Positions 20,560-60,131 of a stretch of DNA of 64,000 bases are shown in pieces. Each line of letters starts with the position of its first letter. Position 1 is the stretch's first letter. This DNA is from Stictocephala bisonia (taxonomy: Eukaryota > Arthropoda > Insecta > Hemiptera > Membracidae), in NCBI GenBank assembly GCA_035578905.1, contig JAQJVL010000705.1, positions 236,501 to 300,500 on the forward strand, in the 5' to 3' direction. The notes beneath the pieces are model-generated. The model had not been told where the DNA came from and did not search any database. It was given only the letters and a program-made list of their open reading frames with translations. The translations under genes and the position numbers were made by a program.

Positions 20560-21050
20560 AAAGGTTTTTAAAAAATATTTAACTAAACTACTATAACTTA
20601 AACTTAAATGAAGCTGAACTCACATGAATCGTGAGTTCGGTAGAGTTGTTGCCACTCACTCCATGTGACATTAGGTAAAGTGTGCCGGCTTATATATTCC
20701 TCATATCTTCATTTTGAAGGAGATGCACAAATCGTTTAGGCAGAAATACTTGAAATTTTGCTACATCACCTGGAGTGTAAGGAGCGTCACTTAGTGACTA
20801 AAATCACACATCCCACAGTAGTATTCATCTTCCCTATACTGTGAATTATGTATATTCTTTGCTCTTTCAGCTCGGAACACTTCTTTGGGACTAGAACGGT
20901 TGATTTCGATTGAGCATTAAACTGTTCAACCAACTATTGTAGAAACTGTTGTGACACCATCTTCAATAATGCTGCTGCTACTGCTGCTGCTGCTGCTTCT
21001 ACAGGTGTCTTCTCCTTTGAGCTCGGAGTAATACTGGTGCATGGTTAGTG
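20560..21050 (-). pseudogene. Accessory Polinton protein, VFLPKRF/LVSHG-type, with Ala/Ser codon run
   Basis: Minus-strand coding in shifted frames. A CAG-rich run near 20971-20997 gives poly-Ala or poly-Ser depending on frame. Then come QFLQ-LVEQFNAQS, ELKEQRIYIIHSIGKMN, APYTPGDVAKFQVFLPKRF and TLYLMSHGVSGNNSTELTI. From memory, arthropod genomes carry many similar ORFs with a VFLPKRF strand and a YLVSHG...STELTI ending. I cannot name the family and only suggest a small beta-rich, possibly nucleic-acid-binding protein. A frameshift and an in-frame TAG (after QFLQ) make it a pseudogene. It lies directly upstream of the fibre gene on the same strand. Confidence 0.4.
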
Positions 21051-21072
21051 GTGCACTCTCGTATTTATATCC

Positions 21073-21642
21073 TCAATTATCCCCACCATTCTTATATTCC
21101 AGAGTTTTTTCTAAAAAAGCAGCTAGACGGTGAGCTTCTTGTAATGCACAGTGTGGATAACTATGTTTTAGGTTTTGTACACAAACGCAAACACCATCGT
21201 AACTCCCCTTAAAACCTTTTTCAATACATGTATTGTAAACATTTATGGTTGTATATAATTGAATCCAGTATCGTTTCTCACACCCAGTTGTATAAATTTT
21301 GTAAATTTTTTAACAAAAATGGTACATGATGCATTCAAGATCTTTATAACTTGTAAAACCTTCTGCCCATCTAATATAGTGATCCTTATTTATCAACCAG
21401 TTGTTTGTTCTTTTAGCTTTTTAAGATAAAATTTTAAATGGAAATTGAGGTTTAAACAAATATAAATATACAACTCCTGTATTAATATTTAAAAAAGTTA
21501 ATTCCTTAATAATGTACTCAGTAAAGTACAAAGTAATGTATCATATCCAAAAAAGCTTGAAATTCTACAACATAATCCTTTTCCTCAATATGTGTACAAC
21601 ATCTTTAAAAGATACTGAAGGAGTGTTTAGTGTGTGACTCAT
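21073..21642 (-). pseudogene. Accessory Polinton protein (CALQEAHRL type), decayed
   Basis: Starts with MSHTLNTPSVSFKDV and has a TATA-like TTTTATATTTA about 40 bases upstream. Broken frames then give FQAFLDMI, KELTFLNINTGVVYLYLF, KPQFPFKIL, RTNNWLINKDHYIRWAEGF, EKRYWIQLY and HCALQEAHRLAAFLE. This order (FKPP.PF, then NNW, then W..G, then KG.EKR, then CALQ...L) resembles an uncharacterised protein I recall as widespread in arthropod genomes and often beside Polinton genes. The fold could be nuclease-like, but I see no certain catalytic set. Several stops and one frameshift. Confidence 0.4.
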
Positions 21643-21845
21643 TGCTGTGTGCGAGTTAACTGGTGTGCACAACACGATAGGGGTAAATATAAAACATAGC
21701 CTATATATTGAACTGGTTTCCTCACCACGGTAGGTTTAGATATACCAAGCCATACAGTTCCCAGCACGTTGGTATATATTTAACGTGGGCACCATCCCTG
21801 GTAGGCCTACCCCACAAAGTTAAGAAAGTTTACTCTGTTTATCCT

Positions 21846-22223
21846 TTTACGTTCTCTTCTGCTTCTGTATTATTTTCTGTTTGAGTTTCTTTATTTTCAC
21901 CAAAAATTTTATAATCTCTTAGACGTCTCCAAACTTCCACTTTGTAAGGGATTCTATTAAATATTGATGTATCTATAGGACTATAAGTAAAGAATAGGTG
22001 CATCAGGTTGTGTTTCCATCGTATGTATCAAGTAATCTTGAAGTATCGGTCCTGGAAACGCCAACTGTTTTACATATCTGGTAACGGGTGAAGCGTTAGA
22101 GGTTAAAATAAAAAATTCCTCACGTGTAACTAGCACATTTTCATCATGTTTGCTTACATTTCTAATCCGTACCAGTTGTTCACCACGCTGTTTAACAATA
22201 TCAATCTTGATGTCACTATCCAT
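21846..22223 (-). CDS. Small Polinton accessory protein (possible regulator)
   Basis: An open frame of 80 codons (MDSDIKIDIVKQRGEQLVRI, VTREEFFILTSNASPV, PGPILQDYLIHTM) continues after a single frameshift near 21990. The continuation is YSPIDTSIFNRIPYKVEVW and RRLRDYKIFGENKE with an acidic tail, ending near 21846. The sequence is well preserved on both sides of the shift. It sits between the major capsid gene and the accessory cluster, all on one strand. Family not recognised. The VTREEF block is only vaguely like small DNA-binding coactivator domains, and I do not rely on that. Confidence 0.45.
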
Positions 22224-22685
22224 TAATCTTATATGAGTTTTTCTACCAACTATATTGTTTGTTAGGTAACATTCGATTAGATGTAGATGTTTAACAAATG
22301 AATCTCAATCAGTCTCTGTAAAGTGTCCCATTTTAGATCCATGATATAAAATAACAGTAGGTGAATAATTCAAAGATTCAAGTAACCCTATTGATAAACA
22401 TTTACTCAGACAGTTATATAAAGGGTACATAACCCAAAGCAAAAATTCTGCTAGCAATGTTATGGATGGTTCTTAACTTTTTCCTTTACATTTTACCATT
22501 GTTCTTGCGTGTTGATTTATCCTGTTCATTATTTTGAAACTCTCCTTCCTCATTACTTAATAGCGGTGTATCTGAAGAGATACTAATGGTGTGACTATGA
22601 TGTTGACTCGTCCGCACTTTGTGGTTAACTGATCTTGCTGAACGTTGCCCGCTTTTATAATTTTATGATTGTGGAGGGGGGATAT

Positions 22686-23915
22686 TTAATTCCAATATAC
22701 CAGTTTAACAACTCGTGAGAGTGGAGTATACGTGACAATCTTATCATGAAGAATTAAACAGTACGCATTTGTATTGTCTGAAACGTTGGCTTCAAACTCT
22801 AACTCTAATTTAATATCAATAGTAGAAGATTTTACCCATTCATTTTTTTTTTAACAGTCGATGACTACAATCGGTGCTTCGATGCTAAATTATGCTGGTG
22901 ATAATAGCGGGGTGTTTACTTTCCCATAATATGAGTTCTGAAATTGGGCGTACATATCATACAAAACACTATACCTTTTCTTATTAAATGAAATGTGTAA
23001 GTTGTCATATGAGGAAAACTGTGAATTTAGGTACAGTTTGCAATGTGTTAGTTTACAATCGTTAAATTGTGCAGCGTTGGCAGTATTGTTATTTCTTCTT
23101 CTGGTTTGCATGCCGAATATTACATATCGAGGTTTCTCCAGATGTGTTGAAGTCTTTACAGTTCACGTGTGTCGCTGTGTAGTTGGAAGAATTGGGTTTT
23201 CGTGCAATTCCTAGCTTCTGAAAGGTAATGCCATTCACGATCGGATGTCAACTATTTCAACAAAGTAATTCAATGTGCATCCGACACTCTTAGGTGAGGA
23301 ACCCTCCAAACAACCTTTTTTAAACTTACGTTCCATTCTAACTTTTCAGTTGTCTCTTCAGGTGCTAAAATTGTATCTTTATCATTAGATGATCGTTAAA
23401 GTGCCAATTCCTGTTTAACATTTATAATTATGCGTTTGTAATCCTCTGCGAAACCTAACAATAATTTCAAGGAAATATAAAGTCAAAGTTCCCTTTAAAT
23501 CGGGTGTTATTGTGTCATTTTGCGGTGCTACCCAACCTGCAACTTCTAAGAATTGCCTTTCGTTAGGTGTTAAAGACACTAATCCTTTCAACGTTGTAGC
23601 GATTCCGGTCTTTTTGGTTGAATCAACAGTAACTCCTGATAGTTCATACCTAACTTCGTCAAATAAATACACAATAGGATTATTAATAAATGGCACAGTG
23701 CTTTCAGGTGTTTTTCCATCTTCATTTGTTATTCTTCCTTCAATGTAGAGATAACTCTCCGATGGTAGAGTGTAAATGTCCTGCTGTTGTATCGGAATAT
23801 GAATTTCATCATTATTGTTTATTTTCGATGAAGCGTAAGGGTTTTGGGTGTGATACTCCTTCTCCCACAGGTTTTCGTCGAATGTCGGTCCGTGTGTTAT
23901 AACCAGAATCTCCAT
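22686..23915 (-). pseudogene. Polinton major capsid protein (double jelly-roll)
   Basis: The N-terminal 166 codons (23415-23915) contain HTQNPYASSKINNNDEIHIP, QQQDIYTLPSESYLYIEG, YLFDEVRYELSGV and GWVAPQNDT. This is the standard N-terminal signature of Polinton/adintovirus hexon-like capsid proteins. A middle piece (22890-23111) gives YDNLHISFNKKRYSVLYDMY. The C-terminal end near 22690-22860 gives PIVVIDC, STIDIKLELEFEAN and AYCLILHDKIVTY. A frameshift near 23430 and stops further on disrupt it. The gene is about 1.2 kb. It would form the icosahedral shell. The start MEILVITHGP at 23915 fits the family. Confidence 0.8.
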
Positions 23916-24107
23916 ACTAATTAATCTTAAAACCCAAGTTTTCCAGAAACTGACGATTATTACTTGTTAACTCGTCAGCTGCTAATGAGCTACTAAGCTC
24001 CTTACTACTTGGTTCTTTCTTTTTAAAAGATAATCCCTTTACACACTGGTTTTCAAATGGATCCTAACTGTGATAGTTTCTCCTATGAAATTGATAGGGG
24101 TCCCGTC

Positions 24108-24700
24108 TTAATCCAATATGTCTAACACTATGTCTGACACGTAACTGGTGTTCAGCGGTAAATACAATAGGTTATTAGGGTTTACAATTATTTTAAATCC
24201 AGGTGGTACTGATAGATAAAATGTATGCAATATGTGGCTATTTTCTCCATTTCTATAAGATCCATGCACAATGTTGCATGTAACGTTTATAGTGTTTACT
24301 TTTAAAATGTTCGCAGTGTTTTCATCAGAGTGAGTTTCATTAGTTTTCAATATATTCATTGTTTTATGAAAACCAAAAATATCACCTATCGAAACAGGTT
24401 TGCTAAAATCTATGTAATATTTAGATTTTATCTCAGTTTTTAAAGTGTTGTTGTTACTTTTGATAAGTATATTGTCTTATCTCACATATTACTGTATCAT
24501 TCTTTTTATATTATCTATTTCATATGAAACTGTTAGTAGAGTTATTTGATCTTCATCTAATAATTTTCCATTTTTATCAACATTTTTGGCATAATGAAGT
24601 TTATTATTAACGTTTTCAGTTATATTTGGAATTAAATTGTATGTTGTTAAATCTAACAGTGCTGCTTACCACAGTTTTTACTTTTGCAATCTTAATGCTG
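24108..24700 (-). pseudogene. Polinton minor capsid (penton-like) protein, element 1
   Basis: The open part (24108-24359) reads NTINVTCNIVHGSYRNGENS and HILHTFYLSVPPGFKI, then LLYLPLNTSYVSDI. It aligns with the better copy in element 2 (63250-63935: IIRITCNLVRGSYRDGIEGH, VLHEFHPTVVSGS, VKYLPINRQLSLSE). The N-terminal part upstream to about 24700 is in broken frames (FSKPVSIGDIF, NNTLKTEIKS). This is the single jelly-roll vertex protein of Polintons by position and similarity. It lies between the protease and the major capsid gene, the usual Polinton order. Confidence 0.65.
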
Positions 24701-24769
24701 GAAATAGCACACTCCGTAATGTGGATGAGTTTTTAGTATAGTAAACTGTATACAAAGACATCTCTCAGT

Positions 24770-25170
24770 CGACTAACACTTGTAGCCCAAAATTCTAAAC
24801 ATAAATGTCTGCATATTGATGTATCCGAAGGCTGTTGTCGTTTATAGTGGTAAAATATGTGATCGACTTAATTAAAATAACGTAGAAGTTTTTTAGGCGT
24901 AGTGAGATTCCCGAAACTATCAAAATAGAACACTGTTTTATTAAGTTTTTTATAATATATCCAATGCGTTCCAGGTCCATCAATATTATCCAAGTTTACA
25001 ACACCAGTTTCGTTACGTCTAATATGTTTTGGGAGATTATCTTTCATGAAAACAACTCAAAAAATTGGTTATTTTTAGACAAGCAGCAAATTGCAGAAGA
25101 TCCATGTTGGTTAATGCTTTGTTTGATAATATATGTTTATTTTCCTTGTTTAGTACACACGGTTAGGTTT
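24770..25170 (-). pseudogene. Adenain-like maturation cysteine protease, element 1
   Basis: Minus-strand coding with GVVNLDNIDGPGTHWIYYKK supplying the catalytic histidine, VFYFDSFGNLTTPKKLLRYF supplying the aspartate, and after a stop and frame change SICRHLCLEFWA supplying the catalytic cysteine region. Adenovirus-type proteases use this His-Asp-Cys arrangement with CG after the cysteine strand. Here the glycine following that cysteine is arginine, unlike NCGHLCLDFL in element 2. It would cleave capsid precursors during virion maturation. Stops and a frame change interrupt it. Confidence 0.65.
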
Positions 25171-25193
25171 TAGGTACAACTCTTGCCCCTTTT

Positions 25194-25480
25194 TTAATAT
25201 TGACCATAATGTAGTTTTTTGAGTATTTCTGTTTTCTTATTTTGATATTTTAATCCTCTTTTCAATCCTTTTCCTATTTTCTTACGTGGATGTTGTCGTC
25301 TTCTCCTTTTACCACCTCCGACTGCTGTTTTACCTTTCATTGCTGTCGTAACCGCTAAAGCCGCTGATCTTTCACCAACACTTGCGTCAATGGATTTTAC
25401 TCTGTTCCACGCCTTTTTAGCTAGAATTTTATCAGCCACCAATCTGTTAGCAGAATCACTATATTTTGAGTACACTGATT
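25194..25480 (-). pseudogene. Basic C-terminal tail of the PLA2-type virion protein; N-terminal domain deleted
   Basis: The 93-codon frame begins YSKYSDSANRLVADKILAKK and continues SVGERSAALAVTTAMKGKT, then a run of Arg/Lys (GGGKRRRRQHPRKK). It matches the part of the element 2 gene (62253-62807) that follows its PLA2 catalytic core: YDKYKDS, RKLAERAWERL, SLGEKAAAWLVTNVMKAK, basic tail. Everything before YSKYSDS, including the Ca-binding loop and HD catalytic pair, is missing. The sequence upstream belongs to a different gene. The basic tail probably contacts DNA in the virion, by analogy with viral core proteins. Confidence 0.65.
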
Positions 25481-25499: not shown

Positions 25500-25890
25500 G
25501 CTGGAAATAGGCGCGCTTGCCTCTTATGTGATGTCCTGATCTTTTTCACCAATAGTTGTTTCAGAAACATCTAAATCTTCCGATACTTCTTGACTTTCAG
25601 TAGGACTATCACCACCATCTTCTTGCGTTTTAAATTTAGCCACCGGCAAAATTAGATCATTTCTGTAGGAGGGAGAAATCTATTCACCGTTTGCACCATC
25701 TCCTTTAACGGTTCTATAACAGGTTTAAACGTTGTTTCCAAATATTTGCTAATACCTAATTGTATCACTTTCGCTAATACCTAATTTTAAAGCTCTGTTT
25801 TTCCTTCGTATAGAGTCACTTAATGACTTTATCTCCTTTAACAACCTTTTTTGTTTACCCAAGTTGACAGCAGGATTATTCGGTTGCAAA
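25500..25890 (-). pseudogene. N-terminal remnant of a Polinton protein (DUF8207-type gene)
   Basis: Broken minus-strand frames give NLGKQKRLLKEIKSLSDSIR, RKNRALKLGISESD, KYLETTFKPVIEPLKEMVQ and an acidic stretch (TEVSEDLDVSETTIGEKD-like). The corresponding gene in element 2 starts at 60132, also has a LKPIAKPLKNIAEEG block and acidic region, and then a conserved C-terminal domain. That C-terminal domain is absent here. The remnant runs within about 20 bases into the PLA2-gene tail, consistent with one deletion. A short duplication of TTAGGTATTAGC also lies in this region. Confidence 0.45.
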
Positions 25891-25910: not shown

Positions 25911-26746
25911 TCAATGTATTATTGCAAAACGATCAAATCCGAGACGGTATCGTCCATTGTTGAGTTCACTATCCTTATCTATTACCACAAACCAATAACT
26001 TTGTTCCCATGCCTGTGCACATAATGATTTAAAATTTCTATAAAGCAAGTCTACACCAATATGATCATTGTATACATGTTTTAGGTTGGTATCATTTTGT
26101 TTAAACAATATCAGAAGATTAACATTATCACAGATAAGCTTTATAGGTATTTTGCTATATGTTTGGCCGATGTAAATGCTATCTATTTGATTATATCTAC
26201 CCATAGGGAAGTAATTTCTAATTGTATCATGATTTTCACAAGACACATCATCAAATATAAAAACTGAGTAAGGTTGCGCTTGAGTGGGTTGCATTATTTT
26301 TTTCGTTTTCATCATACTGAAAAAAACTTACTTCAGGTATTTCAGAAATTATTTTACGCAATAGTTGGTATTATACCATAGTACATTATGGCTGGGCGAG
26401 TGGGTCAGTACCACAGTACGTTTATGGGAGGGTGGGTGGGTCAATACCAGAGTACATGTATGGTTGGGCGGGCGGGTAAGTACCACAGTACGTGTATGGG
26501 AGGGCGGGTGGGTTGGTGTAAGGACTTAGAGAAAACATATAAATTATTAAATCTAATCCCGTTAGGGTTTGTAATCAGGTTAAACACAACATTGGTCTCA
26601 CCACAATTGGATGGTCCCCTGACTATGTATCTCACTGTATCCAGTAGCAGTGCACCATACTTTCCATCTACACTTCGTACCTTATCTACTCTTAAATTGT
26701 ATATGTTATTTATATTAAAACGATCTTTGAAATGAACTATCTCCAT
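25911..26746 (-). pseudogene. Polinton packaging ATPase (FtsK/HerA type), element 1
   Basis: The N-terminal part (from 26746) has VRYIVRGPSNCGETNVVFN, a Walker A in which the invariant lysine is replaced by glutamate (GET for GKT). RFNNLYVFSKSLHQ follows. Coding resumes near 26365 with YQLLRKIISEI, then PYSVFIFDDVSC (Walker B, 26260-26230), MGRYNQIDSIYIGQTYSKIP, LLILFKQND and FVVIDKDSE, and stops at 25911. Between the Walker boxes lies a 36-bp minisatellite (26371-26521). The enzyme would pump DNA into capsids. The Walker A change, the array and a frameshift make it inactive. Compare 59354-60050. Confidence 0.8.
26371..26521. repeat. 36-bp minisatellite inside the ATPase gene
   Basis: About four copies of a 36-bp unit built from GGGTGGGTCAGTACCACAG followed by TACGTGTATGGGAGGGC. 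The unit length is divisible by three, and the host reading frame stays open through most of it. The same unit family occurs at 54690-54860 and 55335-55640 inside a LINE. The G-rich strand has several GGG runs per unit. Confidence 0.85.
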
Positions 26747-26781: not shown

Positions 26782-27690
26782 CTACATCAGATCCTTTTTA
26801 TCTATCCAAGATTCCTCATTTTTATTAGATCCTAACCAATGAACGAGTACTTTATCTTTTTCCTTTTTTAACACACTTTGAACTAAGTAAACTTCGCCAA
26901 CGAAAGACTTCATCAATTCATGTCCATAGAAACCTCCTTGTAAGCGTTCATTCTTGTTGTCCTTTGAAATATACGTTTCAGGAACGGTAGGTTGTACTCT
27001 ATAAACTGTAAACACTTCATTTGTCTAATTCGGTAAATACTTCTTGCTGAATACATCTTTGTATTTGCTAATACGAACTTTATCTCCCACATTAAATACA
27101 TTAGGTTTTCTTTTCAACTTAGGTCTTGTATTCTTTAAAATTTGTTGCAGTACTAATTTTTCATTATTTCTCCTCACTTCAACTGGTTTCATACCAATAC
27201 TACTGTGAAACCTGTTATTATATTCTTTGATTAATTGCGGTCGTATATCAAACCGAACGTGTGTGCCTTTGTTTGAAAACGCTTTATACATTGCTCCTTT
27301 TAACTTTCTATTAAACCTTTCAATAATTGCATCCTTTTTTCTGATTGGGTGGAATAATGGTTTATATTGTACCTTTTCATCAAGTCTGAGAACAACTTGT
27401 TAAATTATTCTTTACCTTCATCGGTCTGTAAATGTTTTATCAAAAGATTACCTCTTTTAATTATCAACTCCATAGCTGTGACAACAGTTTTACCAGTTTT
27501 ATCTTTTAAAGGGATTGCATCAGCAACGTTTAAAAAATAGTTTATAACAACTAGTATGTATCTAAAACCTTTGTTTATTTTGCTATAGGGTTGCATTTAT
27601 ATTATATCATCTTGATATAGATCGTTTACACCTTTAAAAATTGACTGACTTCTAGGAAAGTTTATTCTAGCTGGTTTGTGAAGTTCATAG
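26782..27690 (-). pseudogene. Polinton integrase with chromodomain, element 1
   Basis: A retroviral-type DDE integrase in pieces. VNDLYQDDI near 27625 is the first Asp; LIKHLQTDEGKE at 27405-27440 is the second Asp, followed by a stop. AIIERFNRKLKG near 27320 carries the catalytic Glu. Then come YNNRFHSSIGMKPVEVRRNN and NVFNVGDKVRISKYKDVF (SH3-like beta domain), and finally a chromodomain with VLVHWLGSNKNEESWIDKKD at 26782-26860. The same domain order is intact at 58434-59351. It would join element ends to host DNA. Stops at 27600 and 27405 and later frame changes inactivate it. Confidence 0.85.
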
Positions 27691-27834
27691 ACGATTTTGT
27701 TTTTTTGGACTCATTTTCACATTTCATGCACCTTCTTAGTACTACAAAATATAACTGCTCAACGTATTATCCATGCAGGTTTATATATATTAAAAGGATT
27801 ATGAATATATATATCATTATATATATAAAGGATA

Positions 27835-27912: not shown

Positions 27913-30900
27913 TCAATCTATTCTAACTGTGGAGTAGTGTCCAAATGGTAAAGTGTGAACTTTATCATCAAGAATATATATTTTATCATCATCACCTGAT
28001 ATAGCTTTCTTTGTTTCTGTTATACTGTACACCTGATGATTAAAACTTTTTATATTGTTAAATATTGCTGAACATGTTTCTAGTTCAAACAAGCATATCT
28101 TGTAGTTGTCAAATTAAAGTTTCATTTTCAAATAAAGGTTCTTTACACCTTTGGCTTTTTTAATAATACAGTTGTTATCACAGTTTGTTACTTTTCCTTT
28201 CTTAACTGCATACAATTTCACCATTAGAGCTACAATTTCTTTTATCACTACGCTGTTGGTTTCATCCTTAAACTTTTCAAGAATTTTTTGTTTTTACCTC
28301 CATCGTATTTGGAATGGTTTACCGGGTAGTCTGAAAAGTCAGAGTCGTTATTATATGGGAAAGTTCGCAAATCTTCATACATATCAGTTGTTTTAATCCA
28401 ATAAATAAACGCATCAGTATCCATGTATGATATTCCAATGCGATCTCTTCCATAAAACTCTTCCATTTTATTGTAATGAAAAGCGTACATATGAGTCTTT
28501 CATGTATCCAAGATCGCCATACCTACATACAGTGGTATATCCATTACTATTTTGATTTTATTCATGCAAACCGCAACAAGGTTTTCGTTAATAATTATCG
28601 AAGTCCTAAAGTTGGGTTGTTTTACTAACTCTTCTAACTTAGCTGCGTTTCTTATCAACTTTACATTCTTGTGTTTTCTTTTTTCTAACGTTTTACCGAA
28701 AATCGCATTATTCATTAATTTTTAAAAACTCCTTTTGAAAATCAGATTTATCAGCAGCTCTTAGTTTTGTGTTATAATCAATGTACGGTTTGAGCCAGCA
28801 TGATTGTGAAAGCTGAATCACTCTATGTACTTTAGTTACGCGTAAATCTAACTGTATAGCTTGTTGCACAACCCAGAAATGTGCAACATACCTCTCTTAA
28901 TGTTTTAGAGTCATCATCAATTTAGGATGTTTACCATTGGATGGAATTTCCGATTTAGCGAGGAGAGGGAGGTCATAGTGATAATCACGCACTTCTTCAG
29001 GGTACTCAAAGTCACAATCTAAAATGTATCCAACATCACCTTGTTTTGGAATCTCAGCTATATTCTCTAATAAATCAGGATTTATCCATGCAAAGTTGGC
29101 ATGCGGTAGAGGGAGGCTCATGGCTCACCCATACAGGTTGTTGGCGTCAAAGTAATTTAAATAGATCCTGGACTCTTTGCAGGATCGTAATCGGGTACAT
29201 CTTTATTGTTTGCTTTCACATATCTTCTCACGCTTTGCGTTAATCCTCATCTAACTCCTGATTCCACCGTTAACAACATATCAATATCTGTTAATAAATA
29301 TAGTATACACCCAGTCTCCTTTTATATCACCTGCCATGCATATCCCGGAGAGGTGTAGGAATGTAATGGATCCAAACTGCATGCTTCAATGCAGGTATTA
29401 CAAAATTCTTCCATTACACCGCATAGTAGCGTCTTATCAAGTTTTACATAAAAGTCACTGTATTCCCCTAAGGTTTTCATGTCGAGTTCTTTTCATACCA
29501 AACACGCATGTTGATAATAGTTAGGTTCAATGTGTTCTTCAGTTACATTACTGTAAAAATTTTCAATTGGTGATAGACAGGTTTCGTTGAATTTAACCCG
29601 GTTATCCTTGTAGTCATATGGAAAAACTCCCTTTTTCAACACAAGATCCAATTTATTTGAAGGTACAATTTTAGATGTTTCTACAAGGTCTTGCTTTTGC
29701 AGGTTTCTAACTAACTTGCTTAAACTCGATGCCATAAACCTCAATGAGTCTATAAATGAGGGAGACAAAGGTAGTTGGACATTTGCCATCATTACGTGAA
29801 AATTAACAATCACGACGTTCGATTTGGTAAAACCCAAATCTTTTTCAATTGCTAAAAACTAAATTACATCTACACAAACATGTTATAAAACTACGTTCTT
29901 AAACTAACAAACTTATCTACTTTAATCATTATCTACATTTTAATCTAATCCTAGAATGGGGTACAACAAAATGAACTTCTACTAAATATAAAAAATATTA
30001 ACAGGGTTAAATTAATATAACCAATTAGGCGCTGTCAAAGTCACGATATCAACGGAAAATTTCAAAACACAATTAAAATTAATATTTAAATCAGACTGAA
30101 ATAAGATTACATTAACTTCACAGGGAACCGCATTTTTAAACGTAAATTCATCGAAGGTGCCTTTATGAAACTAAATAATGAACAAGTAATCAGTCAAAGT
30201 AGCATAGAAGTTAGACCCATGTGGGTTCCTTTACTTAAAAACACACTTGATAAAAAGTTCAATACACTCATGACATCATCTAACCAGAACCCTAAACCAC
30301 CTGCACCTACAACAATTAAACACGCCATGAGTCTACGTCCCCGTACCTGAGTCACCGCATTTTTGGCGATCTCGGAGCGTATGTCCCTGACCTCGTCAGT
30401 CTGTGTAGGGTTGTTGTGAAGTGTAGTGTGTATGTTTGTCTTGTCCCCGTGTCTTATTACCTTGGAGGGAACTTCGTAGACACTGCATTTGGATTATATC
30501 ATCCTCACTTCGTGCCTGGGACGTCTGGACGCCATCGTCACTGCGAGTCGTAAGACTTCATCATTTTTGTAATATTTGATTATTGTATTGTTTTATTCCT
30601 AATAATTGTTGTTTTTCAGGTTAAAATGTAATTGTAATAGTATTCTCAGTCCATCCGAATCATATATATAATTTTTTGTGCATGTTGAAGGTTATTTTAA
30701 ATTAATAGTGTTTTTCAGGTACCATATAGTTATGATTATTTAATGTAATCTTATTTCAGTCTAATTTGAATATTAATTTTAATTGTGTTTTGACATTTCC
30801 CGTTGATATCGTGACTTTGACAGCGCCTAATTGGTTATATTAATGTAACCCTGTTAATATTTTTTATATTTAGTAGAAGTTCATTTTGTTGTACCCTATT

Positions 30901-32868
30901 CTGGGATCTAGGTTAAAATGTAGATAATTATTAAAGTAGATAAGTTTGTTAGTTTTAGAACGTAGTTTAATAACATGTTTGTGTAGATGTAATTTAGTTT
31001 TTAGCACTTGAAAAAGGTTTGGGTTTTACCAAATCGAAACGTCGTGATTGTTAATTTTCACGTAATGATGGCAAATGTTCAACTACCTTTGTCTCCCTCG
31101 TCTGATACTCCATCATTAACAAATTTCAAAAACACACAATAAATCTTAGTTTAATTTTACCAACCTGTTTAGAAAAACTTTTCCATGGTGGTTGCAAGAA
31201 AATCAATGTTTCCTTCATCTCGTCCTAATTGAGGAACTATAAAGTGAGATCTGTATCTACTCAGATTATGTAAAACAATTGGAATAAAACGAGGCAACTT
31301 ATAGTTGACATTACATGCGTTGCAAGCAGGTTCTCTGTAAAGACTCTGTCAAATGGTCATGATCTCTTACTTTTCCATTTACAGATGTAAAGCTCTTTTT
31401 ACATAAATAACACATTGTTGCAGAATTATACGTCTCCAGTTGGTAGTCTGATAGCGGTGTCATTGGTTTTATACCGCTATATAGTACTTCAACTTTGTGC
31501 GCGATGTAGTACAGTTCACCAAAAAGGATTTTAGCAGCATTTTCACCTCTATATACATGTGGAACAGATGTTAAACCGTAGTGTTGCAGATGTGTTTCTG
31601 AAAGTGTAGTCTTTATTAACAAACAATAGCTGTTCAGTTCATGTAGTTGGTATTTGATTCTTCTAGTCGGATCTTGGTTACTAACGTCTACAGGTAAAAG
31701 TGATGATTCAAAGTCTGCATACACTAAAACTGGTATATTATACTGCTGAGCAACCTTAGCAAATTCAACTCTGCACTGTTTCTGGGTTGGTAAGAATATT
31801 CGTACACCTTCTTTCTCATTGCAAAGACGTTGATGTTCGAGTAGCCAAACGTTTCCTCTTCGATGTTCACGTGTTAAACAGAAACAACGTTTAGAAACTG
31901 TTATTCAATGCTCCGATTTTGATACTTGTTTAGCAACTACTTTATTAAAATCTCTGATATATACATAATGTGAAATATCACCTTGCTTTATTAGCAATAA
32001 ATCTGTATGACCAATTCGTTCAAAAGCTGTCAACTGAAGAGGGTAAACATTATTAGATTGGTCTAAACCAAAAACATCCACAGGAACTACAGGATTTTAT
32101 TTTTCAAAACGTTTAATATCAGATAGAAGAACAGGATACTTTATATTCTTAAAGTTATATTTGTTGATTACTTCCTTATATCTGCGATTAGGTCTATCAA
32201 CGTGTGCACCATCTACATACTTAGCGAGCATAGCGTATTTAAAACACTCATTATCTTCGTTTTTTACGTTTATGCATGATTTGATTGTTTCAATTCTTTT
32301 AGGCAAAGGTATATAGCTACTACCTCTGTTTCCGTAACCATGTTTGTGCACTCTTACATCCATTCCTTCAATTGATTGATTGGCTCCAGCCGGATCCTCT
32401 TCCTTCATGTTCAGTAACTTTCAACTTCAATTCTTCAAATAGATCTTCTACTACCTCTTCAACATTTTTAGCAGCTAGAATTGACTTGTTCTTGGTGATA
32501 AATCCTCTTTGAGAAAATTCATTCTGCACGTTTGTAAATACAGCATCAAGAATAATACCAAACATTATAAAGTTTAATCTTTCAAGTTCCTTTCTCACTG
32601 TTTATGTTACTAAATGTTTGGTTTGATACAAAAAACGTTGTAGATCACACTTTTTAGTGTTTTTAATTTTAAAATGCCTAACTGCAGATCTCTCTAGAGC
32701 CTCTGATAGAATTTCTACTCTAAGGTCTGCAGGGGGTGCGTATTTAATTACACTTTGTCTATTTTGCTCTTGGTTCCCCTTTCCGTCTTGATTGTGGTAA
32801 ATCTCATGATGAATAAGCAAAAGTATTTCATCAGTAAACTGTTCCGAGCAAATATTACAAATATACAT
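27913..32868 (-). pseudogene. Protein-primed DNA polymerase B (Polinton 1), interrupted
   Basis: The N-terminus starts MYICNICSEQF with a C2H2-like finger, then GRGSGWSQ and SCINVKNEDNECFKYAML (32097-32598). The exonuclease region has VYADFESSLLP (Exo I, 31724), CYLCKKSF and KVRDHDHLT (zinc knot), and VLHNLSRY (Exo II). A 1.34-kb Penelope lies at 29758-31099. Coding resumes with SFIDSLRFMASSLSKL and motif A YFDANNLYG near 29135 (followed by a stop). Motif B is NNAIFGKTLEK at 28715, motif C YMDTDAFIY near 28420, and the C-terminal end HTLPFGHYSTVRID is at 27915. All three polymerase motifs survive but many stops and frameshifts intervene. It would replicate the element using a protein primer. 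Confidence 0.85.
29758..31099 (+). mobile_element. Second Penelope-like element, 5'-truncated, inverted arms
   Basis: Two arms of roughly 340-360 bp (about 29758-30115 and 30745-31099) are inverted copies. GAGGGAGACAAAGGTAGTTG at the left tip matches AACTACCTTTGTCTCCCTC at the right tip. Between them a 61-codon frame (30165-30350) preceded by KRKFIEGAF reads MKLNNEQVISQSSIEVRPMW. This resembles the short C-terminal tail that follows the GIY-YIG domain in some Penelope-like elements. The right arm has ATCGAAACGTCGTG, similar to the GAAACGTC box of the first Penelope. It interrupts the polymerase between exonuclease motifs. No target duplication was recognised. Confidence 0.6.
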
Positions 32869-33579: not shown

Positions 33580-33870
33580 TTAGATATCTTGTTCGTCACT
33601 TTCGCCGGTCTTCGGATTGATCAATAATTGAACATGTAAACACATGTCATATCTACTTGCCCAATTATCTACACGTGGTACAAAGAGAGTCATCCAACCA
33701 TTAGGGACTCAACGCATTTCGTCGTTTCCAAACTCAGTCGTGGTTACCTCCGTACAATAAATATAAACAGTCTTGTTTCTAAACGGCATGGTTGTAAAAA
33801 TGTCTTGATGAAACTTTCGTCGATCCTCCTTGTTCTTCAAAACTCTGTTAATAATTATTGTAGCACCCAT
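33580..33870 (-). pseudogene. Small Polinton-edge ORF with one in-frame stop
   Basis: Reads MGATIIINRVLKNKEDRRKF, QDIFTTMPFRNKTVYIYCTE, then a single TGA, VPNGWMTLFVPRVDNWASRY, DMCLHVQLLINPKTGESDEQ and DI, with a proper TAA. Apart from the one stop, the frame is clean over 96 codons. A TATA box (TTATATAAAG on the minus strand, about 33920-33930) stands some 50 bases upstream of the ATG, supporting the start. Family not recognised. Its place beyond the polymerase suggests it is the outermost gene on this side of element 1. Confidence 0.5.
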
Positions 33871-34682: not shown

Positions 34683-35420
34683 TTGGTTTGGAGTCCGTAA
34701 ACAAAATGATTTTGGGAACGTGTTTTTGGATGAGGTCGGTATTGTAAGGTATTGTAGTGTGGAGAAAATACACGCTGTTGGATGGTTTGCAGGCCATAGA
34801 ACAGCAGTGCGCTAAGGATAAACCACTTTGAATCGGATTGCAGGCCGTAAAAAAAAGTGATTCAGGAAAAGGTAAAGGAAGTGCAATTCATCTCTTGGGT
34901 GGAGCTGGAAAGACTGGTAGATGTTGGCTGCTAGCTGCCGCTCGAGATGATATCAAGGCGGAGAACAGCGACTCCCCCTTTCACTCTTCTCAAGACAAAT
35001 CACTTGTATTGAGGAGAGAATATGCACTGATGGATGGTTTGCAGGCCATAGAACAACAAAGCGCTTAGTATAAACCACATTTAATCGGTTTGCAGGCCGT
35101 AAAAAAAATGATTCAGGAAAAGGTAAAGGAAGTGCAATTCATCTCTTGGGTGGAGCTGGGAAGACTGGTAGATGTTGGCTGCTAGCTGCCGCTCGAGATG
35201 ATATCAAGGCGGAGAACAGCGACTCCCCCTTTCACTCTTCTCAAGACAAATCACTTGTATTGAGGAGAGAATATGCACTGTTGGATGGTTTGCAGGCCAT
35301 AGAACAACAAAGCGCTTAGTATAACCACATTTAATCGGTTTGCAGGCCGTAAACAAAATGATTCAGGAAAAGTATAGGAAGTGCGATTCGTCTCTTGGGT
35401 GAAGCTGGGAAGACTGGACG
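34683..35420. repeat. 251-252 bp tandem repeat array
   Basis: GATGGTTTGCAGGCCATAGA recurs at 34781, 35033 and 35284, giving periods of 252 and 251 bp. A diverged first copy begins near 34683 and a partial last copy fades after about 35400. Each unit also contains a second TTTGCAGGCCGTAAA half about 50 bases on. The long frames across the array simply follow the repeat and are not taken as genes. Confidence 0.85.
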
Positions 35421-35592
35421 GTGTTTCATCCACAGATTGCTGGAGGATGTTGGCTGGTAGCTGCTCCGCCTTCAGAAGCTGGGAAGACTGGTAGATTTTG
35501 GCTGGTAGACGCCTCTTGCAGAAGTGGTATCGAGTCTAAGACGTTGCCATTTTTGTTAACTCATGCACGTCTCTTGTTGACTCTACTGTTAC

Positions 35593-35708: not shown

Positions 35709-36389
35709 TGGATCCTTGCCAAAGGAAGCGCACTATTCCTGCTAAAGTTTCAACATCACATCATCTGCTTACTAAAATGTCTTCACCCAGTACTGTCACT
35801 ACGCAGCCTTCGCCTTCTTCTCTATTTACTTCTCCTCGTCCTCCTTCACCAACAATTATCATGTTGGAGATGGGGATTCTGGCAGCTTGACACATCCTTA
35901 CCACCAATTTCACCACTGCCTGCTTTTCTGTCGCCGCTGCCTCGATTACAATCTCTGTCACCGCTGCCACGATCACCATCTGCGAAGTGTCGGAAGCTAC
36001 AAGAGCTCCGGCGAAGCTGCCACAAGTACCGCACTCCCAGCACATACACCTACATCAAGGGAAAAAGGAAAGGTGAGAGATGTGGCAAACCGATCGTATT
36101 TTGCGAAGAGGTGTGTCCACTTAATTTGCAAAAACTCAGCGAGCTACATCTCCAGCCCCCACTGTAACTCTGGGAAGATTGTGGATCAACCGTCTTAGAA
36201 GAGGGGAAGCGCTACTTTTTCTTGAAGATTCGCAACCAGACAATAGTAATTGTAAGATGCGGCGAACGAGGTTACATCTTAAAATTACCTTGTGGGATGG
36301 AGCATTCGAACCCGCCAACAGAAAGGAACTACCTATACCACAATAGCTCCGGAGTAACAGTGTGGAAACTTGCCCCGAGATGTTTATAA
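35709..36389 (+). pseudogene. Pro/Ser-rich protein with GKRKGERCGK motif and histone-type 3' end
   Basis: ATG at 35709 opens MDPCQRKRTIPAKVSTSHHL, followed by a Ser/Thr/Pro-rich stretch. After a frameshift near 35870 the low-complexity region continues as SPLPAFLSPLPRLQSLSPLP. Then comes YTYIKGKRKGERCGKPIVFC, a spaced Cys/Gly/Lys pattern like zinc-binding C...KKG..C motifs I recall from large DNA virus proteins. After another break the C-terminal coding is GKRYFFLKIRNQTIVIVRCG, YILKLPCGMEHSN, VTVWKLAPRCL and TAA. A histone-like stem-loop follows 46 bases later at 36436. Function unknown; the viral link is speculative. Confidence 0.4.
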
Positions 36390-36435: not shown

Positions 36436-36451
36436 GGTCTTTATTAAGGCC
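36436..36451 (+). terminator. Histone-mRNA-type stem-loop, copy 1 (diverged)
   Basis: GGTCTT-TATT-AAGGCC with one T-G wobble pair, flanked by ACCAAAC and ACCAC. The histone 3' processing signal has a 6-bp stem, a 4-base loop and A/C-rich flanks. This copy has loop TATT where the consensus is TTTC. Confidence 0.5.
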
Positions 36452-37124
36452 ACCACATTTTTACCTGTTTGATGACCTTGACCTACATTGGAAACTTTAT
36501 TTTATCAGGGAAAAATTTGAAAACATGTGTGAGAATTGTAGGTGATTTTGAGCCATGGAGTCCGTGATTCTAGCATGATGCAAGTTTCAAAACGGCCTTT
36601 TTAAAAGCAACCAAGGACAAGGAATAACTCCAACAAGAAGTTAAGGGAAGCATTTTAACCCGACTCCTATTGAACCAACGCTTATTGGGGAAGGACCGTG
36701 CGGGGTGGCGGTTCTCACCCGGCTATCTGCTGCCCAGCCGAAGTGGGCTGGGGCCTCCTTGTCCGCTCAACCGCTCAAGCCGAAGCGAGACGGAGCATCC
36801 AAAGGCCCTCGTAGAATCACCTATACCTACCGTCATACCTACCTATCGTTTTCCACACCGTTTGCTCTATAGGCTTCCTTGAAGTTCTCCGCACACAGCT
36901 CTCAACCAAGTCCACTCATCCACCGATAACTCTCCAGCCCCCAGGATTGAGGCTTGAACGCTCCACTGCTGCCCTGCGCCAGTAGAGAGGTCTTACAACC
37001 TTCACAGCACTGAGTAGAGAGGTTTGAGGCAGGCAAGCTTGCATCATCTTTACCGGAGTTCTCGATGGATTTACCGCTTGAACTGATTTTATGTGTTATA
37101 CTTATAAATACCATCTGATCTCCT

Positions 37125-37142
37125 ATTGGTCCGCTATAAAAG
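37125..37142 (+). promoter_or_regulatory. Inverted CCAAT and TATA box, unit 1
   Basis: CTATTGGTCCGCTATAAAAG: an inverted CCAAT followed by a consensus TATAAAA at 37135-37141, about 55 bases before the ATG at 37192. A second TATA-like TATTTATAAG on the minus strand near 37100 makes the region potentially bidirectional. Confidence 0.55.
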
Positions 37143-37191
37143 TGCCGACCATTCTAGGTTTATCCATTATAGCTTAGACAAGCAGCCCGAT

Positions 37192-37540
37192 ATGAACGTC
37201 CAGGTGGAGCAGATTGACTCTTCGGATGGAGATAGGTACGAGCCGGACACGCCAACTCCGACTCTGCAACTCCAATCCTATCCAGCAGCGGTCTACCCGA
37301 GAACTACGTGGACTTTTCCACCGTCTAAGCAGGGAAATCCGACTAGTAGAATACGGGTAGGATTTAAGCAACCAGGCTGCCTGGGATGATTTGTCACTGT
37401 TCGCGGAGAGTGATTTAGACCCATAATCGGAGGAGGATCTCTCGTCGGAGGAGGTTGGCGATGAAGAGAGCGAGATGTCGCGTGAAGACATCTCAAACGC
37501 TCCGCTGGAGATGTCGGATGGGGCTTCTGACTTGGAGTAG
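37192..37540 (+). pseudogene. Short acidic protein with histone-type 3' end, unit 1
   Basis: Begins MNVQVEQIDSSDGDRYEPDT and proceeds in one frame to about 37350. After a one-frame shift it continues WDDLSLFAESDLDP, a TAA, SEEDLSSEEVGDEESEMSRE, then ISNAPLEMSDGASDLE and TAG at 37538-37540. The C-terminal half is highly acidic. The related copy in unit 2 keeps the same frame throughout. There are 27 bases between the stop codon and the stem-loop at 37568, the spacing typical of histone mRNAs. The antisense strand is also open here (37174-37548, Ser-rich), but the promoter and stem-loop favour the sense reading. No histone-fold similarity is seen. Function unknown. Confidence 0.45.
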
Positions 37541-37567
37541 GCGAGCAATGTCCTCGCTAAACCAAAC

Positions 37568-37583
37568 GGCCTTTTTCAAGGCC
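37568..37583 (+). terminator. Histone-mRNA-type stem-loop, unit 1
   Basis: GGCCTT-TTTC-AAGGCC preceded by ACCAAAC and followed by ACTAAA. Stem length, TTTC loop and both flanks agree with the conserved histone pre-mRNA 3' stem-loop recognised by SLBP. It lies 28 bases after a stop codon. Confidence 0.7.
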
Positions 37584-37859
37584 ACTAAATCTTCAAGTAT
37601 GTCACTACACTTGTCAACAAGCTTCAAACCAGGCTAGGCTCCAGCGTCTTCATCGCACTGTCCAGCGGGCTTCGACGAGGGAGGCGAGGCGAGGAGAGTC
37701 GAGGCTTGCGAACTCCCAGTCACTCAGACTACTCCTCATCCAGCACTAACCTGCTGGCAAGTGCGGTAAAAATGCTGGTAGCCGACCTCATTGACGACTC
37801 TGGCGAAGGGCAGTGGTGTAGCGTTAAAGCTCCAATCCCGCTAAACTAGAAAATTTTGT

Positions 37860-37914
37860 GTTCTTGAAAAAGAACCTTTTGGTTTAGTGAAATTTTGTGG
37901 CCTTGATAAAGGCC
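37860..37914 (-). terminator. Two histone-type stem-loops on the minus strand, unit 1
   Basis: On the minus strand, GGCCTT-TATC-AAGGCC (37899-37914) with 5' flank AATCAAAAC and 3' flank ACAAAA. Then GTTCTT-TTTC-AAGAAC (37860-37875) with 5' flank AACCAAAAG. Both have 6-bp stems and 4-base loops. They would end a transcript coming from the right, that is, from the GC-rich block of the next unit. Confidence 0.55.
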
Positions 37915-38457
37915 GTTTTGATTTAGCTGGGAAGCCCACTGGTCAATGTAATGTGGACCCTGGAGATGACTCTGATTTTAGCCCGACTTGTATTGCACCA
38001 ACGCTTACTGGGAAAGGACCGTGTGGGTGGTGGTTCTCACCCGGCTATCTGCTGCTCAGCCGAAGTGGGCCGGGGCCTCCTTGAACGCTTAACCGCTCAA
38101 GCCGAAGCGAGCAGAAGCGTCCAAGGAGCCCTCTCAGAGTCACCCATACTTACCGTCATACTTACCTGCCGTCTTCCACCGCACTTGCTCGGTGGGCTCC
38201 CCTAAAGTTTTCCGCAGGCAGCTATCCACCCGTCCAATCAGCCAGGTCCAGGCTCCGACGAGGTGAGGCGAGGCGGGCCGGGGTCTGCATCTTCACCGCA
38301 CCACAGGCAGCTCTCCATCCAATCCAGCAAGCTAGCCAGGCCCAGGCTCCGACGAGGCGAGGCGAGGTAATCTTGCAACATCTTTACCTGAGTTCTCGAT
38401 GGATTTACCACTTGAACTGATTTTATGTGTTATATTTTTGACTTCCAGCTGCTCTTC

Positions 38458-38490
38458 TATTGGCCCGTTGCAAATGACCAATCAGATTAC
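38458..38490. promoter_or_regulatory. CCAAT pair in a possible bidirectional promoter, unit 2
   Basis: CTATTGGCCCGTTGC and GACCAATCAG lie 20 bases apart in opposite orientation. The shared downstream element CATTCTAGGTTTATCCATT (also at 37150 in unit 1) leads to the ATG at 38571. The TATA seen in unit 1 is replaced by ACAAAAAGGGG. Confidence 0.45.
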
Positions 38491-38570
38491 ACTAGGATTG
38501 CACAAAAAGGGGTAACCATTCTAGGTTTATCCATTCCAGCTTAGACAAGCAACCAGACATAGACGTCTAG

Positions 38571-38909
38571 ATGAACCAAATCGACTCTTCGGATGGTGAA
38601 AGGTACATGACGGACATGCCAACTCTGGGTCTGCCGCTCCAGTCCCCCTAGATTGGCAGAAGTGGACTACCTGAAAACTACGAGGGTTTCTTCTCACGTC
38701 TGAATAAAGAGAACCGATGGGTAGACTACTGCTGGGATTTCAACAACCGGCCTGTAGAATACGGTGATCTCTCCTCACTCTTCGAGGAGAGTGATTTAGA
38801 TCCGTCATCGGAAGAGGATCCATCGTCGAAGGAGGAGGTTGGGGATGAAGAGAGCGAGATGTCCCTTGAAGACTTCTCCGACGCTCCGCTTCGGACTTGG
38901 TGTAGGTGA
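38571..38909 (+). pseudogene. Short acidic protein with histone-type 3' end, unit 2
   Basis: A single frame of 112 codons from ATG 38571 to TGA 38907-38909, broken only by one TAG at codon 28. It reads MNQIDSSDGERYMTDMPTLG, then LPENYEGFFSRLNKENRWVD, YCWDFNNRPVEYGDLSSLFE, ESDLDPSSEEDPSSKEEVGD and EESEMSLEDFSDAPL. The conserved core against unit 1 is the N-terminal IDSSDG and the acidic SDLDP..EED block. The Trp/Asn-rich middle could be a small folded domain. No histone or other family is recognised. A histone-type stem-loop follows at 38933. Confidence 0.5.
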
Positions 38910-38932
38910 TCGATATCCTCGTTAAACCAAAC

Positions 38933-38948
38933 GGCCTTTTTCAAGGCC
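38933..38948 (+). terminator. Histone-mRNA-type stem-loop, unit 2
   Basis: GGCCTT-TTTC-AAGGCC, 5' flank ACCAAAC, 3' flank ACCAAG, 23 bases after the TGA stop. Identical stem and loop to unit 1 and a better 3' flank. Confidence 0.7.
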
Positions 38949-39080
38949 ACCAAGATCTTTCATTTATCACTACAGCTGACGAAAAGCTTCAAATCAGGGT
39001 AGGCTCCAGTGTCTTCATCGCACTTTCCAGCGGGCTTTGACGAGGGCTGACCGACGGGGCTTTCCAGCTAAACCAAAAAC

Positions 39081-39096
39081 GGCCTTTTTCAAGGCC
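39081..39096 (+). terminator. Extra histone-type stem-loop, unit 2
   Basis: GGCCTT-TTTC-AAGGCC with 5' flank AACCAAAAAC and 3' flank CCAAAAT, about 130 bases after the previous one. No clear ORF ends just before it, so it may be a duplicated end left from a deleted gene. Confidence 0.6.
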
Positions 39097-39348
39097 CCAA
39101 AATTTCACAGCACTTGCCAGCAGGGTTAAAACCAGGCTAGCATCCAGCGTCTTCATCGCACTGTCCAGTGGGCTTCGACGAGGGAGGCGAGGCTTGCGAA
39201 CTCTCAGTCACTCAGGCTAGTCCTCATCCAGCACTAACCTGCTGACAAGTGCGGTAAAACTGCTAGTAGCCGACCTCATCAACAAATCTGGTGCAGGGCA
39301 GCGATGTAGCGTTAAAGCTCCAATCCCCACTAAACTGGAAATTGTTGT

Positions 39349-39402
39349 GTTCTTGAAAAAGGCCGTTTTGGTTTATTGAAATTTTCTGGCCTTAAAAAGG
39401 CC
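39349..39402 (-). terminator. Minus-strand stem-loop pair, unit 2 (decayed)
   Basis: On the minus strand GGCCTT-TTT-AAGGCC (39388-39402, loop shortened to three bases), then GGCCTTTTTCAAGAAC (39349-39364), in which the two stem sides no longer match. They correspond to the pair at 37860-37914 in unit 1. Confidence 0.45.
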
Positions 39403-53520: not shown

Positions 53521-53596
53521 ATTGCATAGAAGACAATTACATGAGTTGTATCACAATAGTCAATATTCAATAACCTATCCCATACATTCTTAAAAC

Positions 53597-53814
53597 GGTG
53601 CATACAAACATACAAGCTGTCTTACATTCATTCTCTCATTTATACTAGGTTAAAATTCTAAAACTAAATAAATATATAATAAATACATACATAACTAAAT
53701 AAATAGGTGCATACAAACACACAATATGTCTTAAGTTCACTCTCTAATTTATACTAGATTAAAATTACAAAACTAAATAAACAAATATATACATAACTAA
53801 ATAAATAGTTAGCG
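53597..53814. repeat. Tandem duplication of about 109 bp in the LINE 3' UTR
   Basis: GGTGCATACAAACATACAAG at 53597 recurs at 53706 as GGTGCATACAAACACACAAT. Both copies continue through CTAAATAAATAATA-like AT-rich sequence. Confidence 0.8.
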
Positions 53815-54150
53815 ACCACTCCACATCCCTGTGCTATGCCTATTTTTGAGGGTCATTTGACATTACTAGATCTTCCAGTTATGTGCAAGGAACTCTTCCA
53901 CGCTGTAGAAAGCGTTTGATATAAGCACGTTTTTAAGACGAGCCTTAAATGCCTTGGGCACCTGTGCCTATTTTAATTCATTGGGTGAACTGTTGATTAA
54001 ACGAACACCGGCCTGAGAAGGTATATGATCGAAAACTACCGTCCTGTGTTGCCCAGTTCGGTAGGTTTCCTTGCCTCTGGTGTTGTGTCCGTGTATGTCG
54101 GTGCCTCTAATTAGAGTAAATTTGGTCATGCAGTAACTGATTGTTTCTAT

Positions 54151-54154
<4 letters not shown>

Positions 54155-54188
<34 letters not shown>
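54155..54188. repeat. (AT)n microsatellite inside the LINE
   Basis: About 15 AT dinucleotides within the LINE C-terminal coding remnant, which explains the long run of alternating Ile/Tyr in the antisense frame. Confidence 0.9.
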
Positions 54189-54192
<4 letters not shown>

Positions 54193-54689
54193 TATGCAGA
54201 GCAGGGTCAACAGGTGTAAGTTCTGCTTTTTAATTTTGAAATAATTCGTACTGCTTTTTTTCTGCAGCCCAAATATTCGCAAAAATTCTCTATTTGAGCA
54301 TCCACCTACAGTATCACCCCATATGATATATGTGGGTATATTATCCCATAATACGCCATCATGATAATTTCAATCGGGCAGTATTTGGACAAATATCTCA
54401 AACAATATATTCAGTACCTGACGATAATTTAGAACAAATCATGTTTGTGTTCCAAGAAATTTAGTGGATTGGACTTCTTCCAGTTCGGTTTCTGATAACA
54501 TAAGGGTTAGAATACGTCTAAATCAGATTGGCGTAAGTTAAAACTGATGTAGTTCGATTTTTTTAGATTTAATTTTAGATTTGTATTATTAAAATACTGC
54601 ATTACATCATTTAAGTCAGTTAATTTTTGAATTTCTAAGTCTAATTTTGATTTATCACTGAAGCAGAGATTCGTATCATCAGTGAACAT

Positions 54690-54860
54690 GAATGGGTGGG
54701 TGGGTGGGTCAGTAAGACTGTGCGTGAATGGGTGGATCAGTACCACTGAACGTGATTGGGTGGGTGAGTGGGTCAGTATGGCTGTACGTGAATGGGTGGG
54801 TAGGTGGGTCAGTACCACTATACGTGAATAGGTGGCTCGGTGGGTCAATACCACTGTAAG
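54690..54860. repeat. Minisatellite of the 36-bp family, first LINE block
   Basis: About four to five units of GGTGGGTCAGTACCACTGTA followed by CGTGAATGGGTGGGT, more diverged than at 26371. It abuts the LINE RT catalytic box. Confidence 0.8.
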
Positions 54861-58318: not shown

Positions 58319-58322
58319 AAAG
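58287..58322. repeat. Perfect hairpin at the truncated polymerase end
   Basis: CTTTTCATACAAC, a 10-base loop, GTTGTATGAAAAG. It could be a transcription end signal before the integrase gene or a scar of the deletion that removed the polymerase C-terminus. Confidence 0.6.
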
Positions 58323-58433
58323 AAGAACATTTAAAAGCATCACCTTTTTGTGAACTCGTTAAAATGTAAATATATATATGTTTGTATCTTAAACATCTGT
58401 TTCATTTTGCTATCACCTATTCACCTGGTAACA

Positions 58434-59351: not shown

Positions 59352-59353
59352 TA

Positions 59354-60050: not shown

Positions 60051-60131
60051 ATGTGATGGTGGGGGTAATTTAACGTCCTATATTTTTTCTTTCAATCATT
60101 TATATTGTACTCATTATCCGTGTTAGACATA

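Follow-up and report, generated by a model that had tools for sequence, protein, structure and literature searches.

Replication-dependent histone genes end their mRNAs in a hairpin, an ending that has been described as special to histone genes. Adenoviruses possess a DNA polymerase of the protein-primed type (PolB) and virion genes resembling those of the element reported here, and their mRNAs are polyadenylated. In PMC11071296, adintoviruses are defined by a PolB with an N-terminal OTU-like domain and an rve integrase with a C-terminal chromodomain, and Hexon and PolB are to be recognisable by BLASTp against named references. In this study, we analysed a stretch of 64,000 nucleotides (nt), hereafter the window, from the hemipteran Stictocephala bisonia (assembly GCA_035578905.1, contig JAQJVL010000705.1, positions 236,501 to 300,500, forward strand), in which stem-loops (SLs) of the histone type follow genes that do not encode histones. 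We observed that the region of about 21-40 kb reads as a decayed endogenous adintovirus/Maverick, and, judging from the sequences compared, it is close to certain that the SL-bearing genes are viral, non-histone genes with histone-type SLs.

A strict SL was defined as an exact match to GGYYYTHHTHARRRCC, the metazoan histone 3' consensus, with a stem of 6 base pairs and a loop of 4 nt. Six exact matches were noticed at five sites in the window, the site at 36436 being counted twice as it matches on both strands; 100 shuffles that preserved dinucleotides gave 0.02 matches on average. With the Rfam Histone3 model (RF00032), the window SLs gave E-values from 1.3e-6 to 0.05 and scores of 20.6-33.0 bits, and do not score like shuffled sequence. 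None of them reaches the curated gathering cut-off of 34 bits, which decides little here because the genuine H2A (33.2 bits) and H2B (32.7 bits) hairpins of the host, close in score to the best three window SLs, fall below it too. Scores above 34 bits were recorded in related elements, for an SL of L037 (36.0) and one of L010 (34.1); L-numbers denote fetched stretches, L040 being from IMG/VR. The original prediction, made from the window sequence, had counted four plus-strand and at least three minus-strand loops. All four plus-strand loops are strict, as is one on the minus strand (37899-37914), the others there being degenerate, including two still looser ones seen by eye near 37870 and 39390. 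Chance hairpins were rejected as an explanation, since the strict matches exceed the shuffles and stem covariation is present.

Host histone genes served as the yardstick. Intact copies were found in two regions, H2A and H2B in L012 and H1, H3 and H4 in L041, with their SLs 38-56 nt past the stop. The hairpin of host H1, H2A, H2B and H3 is GGCCTTTTTCAAGGCC, the same 16-mer as at window sites 37568, 38933 and 39081, and that of H4 differs in the loop. Downstream of the stem, at 12-14 nt, each of the six host histone SLs examined has the motif TTCGTT, mostly as TTCGTTATWTCAC.

The genes that carry SLs in the window belong to at least two families. One, which we label GKRYF, encodes proteins of 250-300 amino acids (aa) whose C-terminal region is conserved and which show a zinc-ligand-like C/H pattern (KG..KGE.CG); directly before its remnant in the window stand three direct repeats of about 251 nt (34752-35425). 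The other encodes acidic proteins and has open copies of 87 aa (L009, with the SL 19 nt past the open reading frame, ORF) and 89 aa (L037), to which the window copies were likened only on inspection and from their position; the window was absent from the tblastn matches listed for the L009 protein. The short ORFs that had been taken for genes of a single tandem family turned out to be what is left of longer genes, now broken by internal stops or changes of frame, one of them a GKRYF copy and two of them acidic copies within a repeat of about 1.37 kb. The distances of 23 to 46 nt first given between ORF ends and SLs held on remeasurement (Table 1), and the CCAAT and TATA-type boxes proposed upstream were located by reading the sequence, as ATTGG/CCAAT at 37125-37129, 38459-38463 and 38478-38482 and as TATAAAAG at 37135-37142. 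The gene copies in the window are decayed, a fossil.

Elsewhere in the genome, SLs were also noticed after a 100-aa protein that we label MSAT (SL at 23 nt in L017, L018 and L048) and after a BIR-like ORF (L062:281-673, minus strand; SL at 31 nt), whose BIR match is weak (E 0.0075, below cut-off) and which is possibly an apoptosis inhibitor. The GKRYF, acidic, MSAT and BIR-like proteins have no firm family assignment: searches of Pfam, NCBIfam and PHROGs gave no firm match to any SL gene, the best of the solved structures against the GKRYF profile had E 0.29, a phage-record search gave nothing useful, and a protein search with the L016 protein alone returned 0 of 6,273 candidates. As predicted, none of the ORFs is a histone, and apart from a weak low-complexity match, no Pfam assignment was obtained for GKRYF, MSAT or the acidic proteins. 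Beyond this genome, profile search found only two GKRYF relatives, P0121 (88%) and P0122 (57%), which are known without DNA context.

The constancy of the SL was examined in GKRYF, for which 436 candidates from the genome yielded 150 scored matches, and 40 3' ends were picked from them for divergence. When one mismatch and one unpaired stem position were tolerated, 38 of the 40 copies proved to have an SL, and 35 had all six pairs, compared with 1 of 484 control windows, a set that includes L011, which itself holds a histone-type SL. For 35 of the 38 copies a stop could be placed, and there the SL lies 17-46 nt past it, the frame picked in L117 being a wrong one; 20 of the 40 copies harbor one SL, 18 harbor two to five, and 2 have none by this rule. 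AATAAA was found within about 200 nt in 0 of 40 copies against 248 of 1,414 windows of element DNA, an absence that is weak taken alone because most late genes are also unmarked by AATAAA.

Thirty-four aligned SLs (25 distinct), of which 23 came from GKRYF copies, 5 from the window and 6 from other sites, were compared for covariation. Standard pairs filled 96.0% of pair cells against 88.7% in shuffles, and changes on both sides of a pair occurred in 18 cells against 6.9 +/- 1.7, values that 0 of 500 shuffles reached. The stem changes read as compensatory; for example, the array unit that has GGCCTTTTTCAAGGCC in L037 has GGTCTTTTTCAAGACC in the sister stretch L076. These changes, the identity of the 16-mer with the host histone SL and the retention of the SL in 38 of 40 GKRYF copies bear out the original proposal of non-histone genes with histone-type 3' SLs. 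With regard to the downstream motif, 94 non-histone SLs (53 distinct) were gathered by a strict stem and 5'-flank rule, and 38 of them (19 of the distinct ones) have TTCGTT no more than 30 nt downstream, against 308 of 54,860 background windows. All of those bearing it come from arrays, apart from one that belongs to an acidic gene (L009). TTCGTT may be a site for U7 small nuclear RNA (snRNA), and TTCGTTATWTCAC and TTCGTTTATTCAC may be the sequences that pair with it.

The viral origin of these genes follows from their surroundings. With proteins of related elements as queries, tblastn placed a full viral gene set on the minus strand of the window at 21.0-32.6 kb, broken and adjoining the SL region. 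Because this set lies directly beside the SLs, the SL region is regarded as the early side of the decayed endogenous virus, and the family that had been left as "cellular or viral" is to be read as viral. The SL genes are positioned upstream of PolB and not among the examined capsid genes, no SL being found in the 16 kb of L035 and L036 that span the integrase-to-capsid genes. Elsewhere in the genome, the same SLs adjoin a DNA polymerase of the protein-primed type, which matched DNA_pol_B_2 (E 8.8e-20) and Endonuclease_7, with no OTU match in Pfam. Past the polymerase, L035 and L036 harbor an rve integrase (E 1.1e-11; Chromo at the C-terminus with E 0.0067, below the family cut-off), a PLA2-like protein, a double-jelly-roll capsid protein (in L036, PF21738 with E 1.1e-118) and, recognised by eye, an ATPase, a protease and a penton. 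A terminal inverted repeat (TIR) pair of at least 40 nt around the decayed window element was not found.

In the genome as a whole, 42 PolB copies were scored, a count that may include haplotype duplicates, and 32 of them have no stop. Over the matched part, identity to the query was 97-100% in 28 copies and about 75% in 13, and C905 stood at 92-93% in two pieces with many stops. A same-strand GKRYF match, drawn from 92 of the 150 GKRYF rows, lies 2.4-3.9 kb upstream of PolB in 33 of the 42 copies. On contigs C2572 and C4363, GKRYF copies follow each other head to tail every 6.35 kb or so, as if parts of the element formed a tandem array. A Histone3 search of the 1.68-Gb genome gave 69 listed matches, 75 of 360,039 candidates having been scored; among 37 short loci around listed matches, 4 have a histone frame, 2 more are H2A- or H1-like, 1 lacks a strict SL and 30 are non-histone, the last comprising 21 of array type, 7 of MSAT/BIR type and 2 that are window-like. 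The concern that the loops might belong to a dispersed repeat found without any ORF applies in part, as they do lie in a dispersed repeated element, but one that has genes and whose gene-linked loops follow ORFs, some arrays elsewhere lacking a recognisable ORF. Relatives of PolB amounted to 3,678 proteins at E <= 1e-20 among 7,990 scored, many of the named ones being from insects. In IMG/VR, PolB alone gave 0 confirmed matches, the SL-plus-flank pattern gave 0 matches, and a PolB alignment gave one distant relative (L040, 35% identity), which has no SL.

Table 1. Positions in the window of the stem-loops, the remnants of SL-bearing genes and the viral gene block
Feature	Position	Strand	Basis and remarks
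Histone-type SL GGTCTT-TATT-AAGGCC	36436..36451	+	20.6 bits; 46 nt past end of GKRYF remnant (frame 36168-36389)
Histone-type SL GGCCTT-TTTC-AAGGCC	37568..37583	+	32.4 bits; 27 nt past a stop of acidic copy 1 (ending at 37540)
Histone-type SL, 16-mer as at 37568	38933..38948	+	32.3 bits; 23 nt past stop of acidic copy 2 (stop at 38909)
Histone-type SL, 16-mer as at 37568	39081..39096	+	26.1 bits; 132 nt past 38933 SL; own ORF not recognised
Histone-type SL GGCCTT-TATC-AAGGCC	37899..37914	-	33.0 bits; no ORF recognised
Degenerate SL	39349..39364	-	2 mismatches to consensus
GKRYF-family gene, 3' part, frames broken	35913..36389	+	tblastn with L010 and L016 proteins: 38.5% and 34.6% identity
Acidic gene copy 1, internal stop and frame change	37192..37540	+	Comparison of ~1.37-kb repeat, frames
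Acidic gene copy 2, broken	38559..38909	+	Comparison of ~1.37-kb repeat, frames
MSAT-related remnant	33583..33870	-	40% identity, E 1.6e-16; no SL seen after window remnant
PolB	27916..32613	-	tblastn; at least 8 pieces, TIR-bearing insertion inside
Retrovirus-like integrase	26785..27704	-	tblastn; two pieces
Packaging-type ATPase	25914..26746	-	tblastn; three pieces; named by eye
ORF345 remnant	25527..25862	-	tblastn
PLA2-like protein remnant	25153..25472	-	tblastn; family name from L035
Adenain-like protease remnant	24766..25207	-	tblastn; named by eye
Penton remnant	24042..24779	-	tblastn; named by eye
Double-jelly-roll major capsid protein	22698..23915	-	tblastn, three pieces; PF21738 E 6.8e-13 at 23418-23915
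ORF145 and ORF204 remnants	21007..22286	-	tblastn

On either side of the insertion within the window PolB (29758-31099) stand inverted repeats some 360 nt long. Another adintovirus-like element, likewise broken, lies on the plus strand at 51472-63869 and has no strict SL inside the window. Just outside the window, L013 contains related, inverted gene copies, with integrase and ATPase in both directions. Fragments of reverse transcriptase and of endonuclease of the non-LTR type were noticed at 46082-48340 (plus strand) and 17380-18441 (minus strand).

We consider it probable that the virus ends its early-region mRNAs through the SLBP/histone pathway of the host and that this ties them to S phase. 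The SLs would be the 3'-end signals of early-region genes in the endogenous adintovirus/Maverick, the element mimicking the host histone 3' signal with the same 16-nt hairpin and A-rich flank, tens of bases past the stops of intronless ORFs, and some viral genes would also copy the downstream motif seen after host histone hairpins. Host SLBP, the U7 small nuclear ribonucleoprotein (snRNP) and the histone cleavage complex would cut the viral pre-mRNAs just past the hairpin. The resulting mRNAs would have no poly(A) tail, may be exported without introns and translated with the help of SLBP, and would build up in S phase, when the cell supplies what the viral PolB needs. What the sequences show is the identity of the hairpin with that of the host, its place past ORFs, its conservation with compensatory changes, the lack of AATAAA and the location upstream of PolB and outside the capsid genes examined; SLBP binding, cleavage, S-phase expression and a benefit to the virus are what we infer.

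Several observations weigh against this reading. The 40 GKRYF 3' ends are related to each other and not a random sample, 2 of them are without a good SL, and the reading frame runs through the SL in L098 and L111. In L039, which represents a sister sub-family, the GKRYF gene is truncated and 6.4 kb of sequence contain no SL, and in the acidic gene of L037 (614-1101, minus strand) the SL is 12 nt shorter than in L009, as taken from both translations. The rows of the covariation set are likewise related and chosen, some of them picked by pairing, and two of the five covariation measures (pairs with double change and further pair types) were not above shuffles. In the stretches read, TTCGTT was not found after GKRYF, MSAT, BIR-like or window SLs, and where viral SLs have it, the gap to the stem is 8 nt in 37 of 38 cases against 12-14 nt in the host. 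A U7 family search found none, and no control was detected in the same search either. Among late-gene ends, 4 of 13 have AATAAA within 200 nt.

Two cellular origins were rejected, histone pseudogenes on the grounds of no histone similarity and linked viral genes, and a host gene family on the linkage of GKRYF to PolB in 33 of 42 copies. Another possibility is that the SL arrays, many of which follow GC-rich sequence with no clear ORF, are non-coding RNAs, or 3' ends with multiple SLs, that would titrate SLBP or the U7 complex and thereby slow host histone supply or spare viral mRNAs from S-phase decay. In its favour, SLs are arrayed about 67 nt apart in L037 (four SLs), L055-L057, L069, L073, L075, L076 and L078; the L037 array is preceded by a promoter-like stretch (CCAAT, TATATAAG and TCAGTTTG) and by GC-rich repeats that extend over about 600 nt and show no clear ORF, making L037:1160-2111 a possible non-coding RNA with histone-type ends; and the two to five SLs in 18 of 40 GKRYF copies are more than a single cleavage needs. 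A single perfect SL after the stop is nevertheless the rule in 20 of the 40, and the arrays could be plain repeat expansion. We find such titration rather unlikely. We are just as doubtful of a combined scheme, in which this virus family would both use the host hairpin and downstream signal to place early-gene expression in S phase and make array RNAs that soak up SLBP, throttling host histones during viral DNA synthesis.

It is very unlikely that the SLs act at the level of DNA, as palindromes for replication, integration or recombination that resemble histone ends only in being hairpins. They are indeed palindromic and repeated, with many tandem and dispersed copies, and array units can form a longer hairpin that encloses the SL (z -6.2 and -4.4 in two units), with the outer inverted repeat ACACTGGTT/AACCAGTGT at z -6.2. 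But a palindrome needs no strand-specific features such as an A-rich 5' flank, a T-rich loop and ACC after the stem, nor a fixed sense-strand place past stops, identity with the host SL or TTCGTT after some SLs. As for a functionless histone 3' end that recombination brought into the element and that then spread with it, the sequence does equal that of the host, the host carries its histone genes in many tandem copies, and the window copies are decayed. Stems that changed on both sides between copies, an SL kept in 38 of 40 GKRYF copies and its presence on several unrelated gene families of the elements speak against such passive copying, which we regard as very unlikely.

If early-region mRNAs do end through the host histone pathway, the rule that this ending is special to histone genes gains a viral exception, and an integrating DNA virus would have a means of following the host cell cycle that requires no viral promoter. 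Arthropod SLBP and U7 could also be studied on the diverse hairpins and downstream motifs that the elements naturally provide, and such 3' ends could be a reason why early genes of this kind may be absent from poly(A)-selected transcriptomes. In the literature searched, no report of viral genes with histone-type SL ends was found.

With reference to replication-dependent histone genes (RF00032), the element shares the 16-nt hairpin of host H1, H2A, H2B and H3 and the intronless ORFs, whereas its SLs lie 17-46 nt past the stop (35 GKRYF copies) against 38-56 nt in the host. TTCGTT is common to both after some viral SLs, but several viral gene families are without it. The viral proteins are not histones, and the viral SLs are often tandem. 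Like the adintoviruses and Mavericks (Polintons) of PMC11071296, the element carries in one block a PolB, an rve integrase with a weak chromodomain, a double-jelly-roll capsid protein and a PLA2-like protein, and the ATPase, protease and penton recognised by eye lie in this block too. It differs in that its early-region genes carry histone-type SLs, which find no mention in the passages of PMC11071296 consulted, and "stem-loop" has 0 occurrences in its text. Compared with adenoviruses, the element has an integrase in addition.

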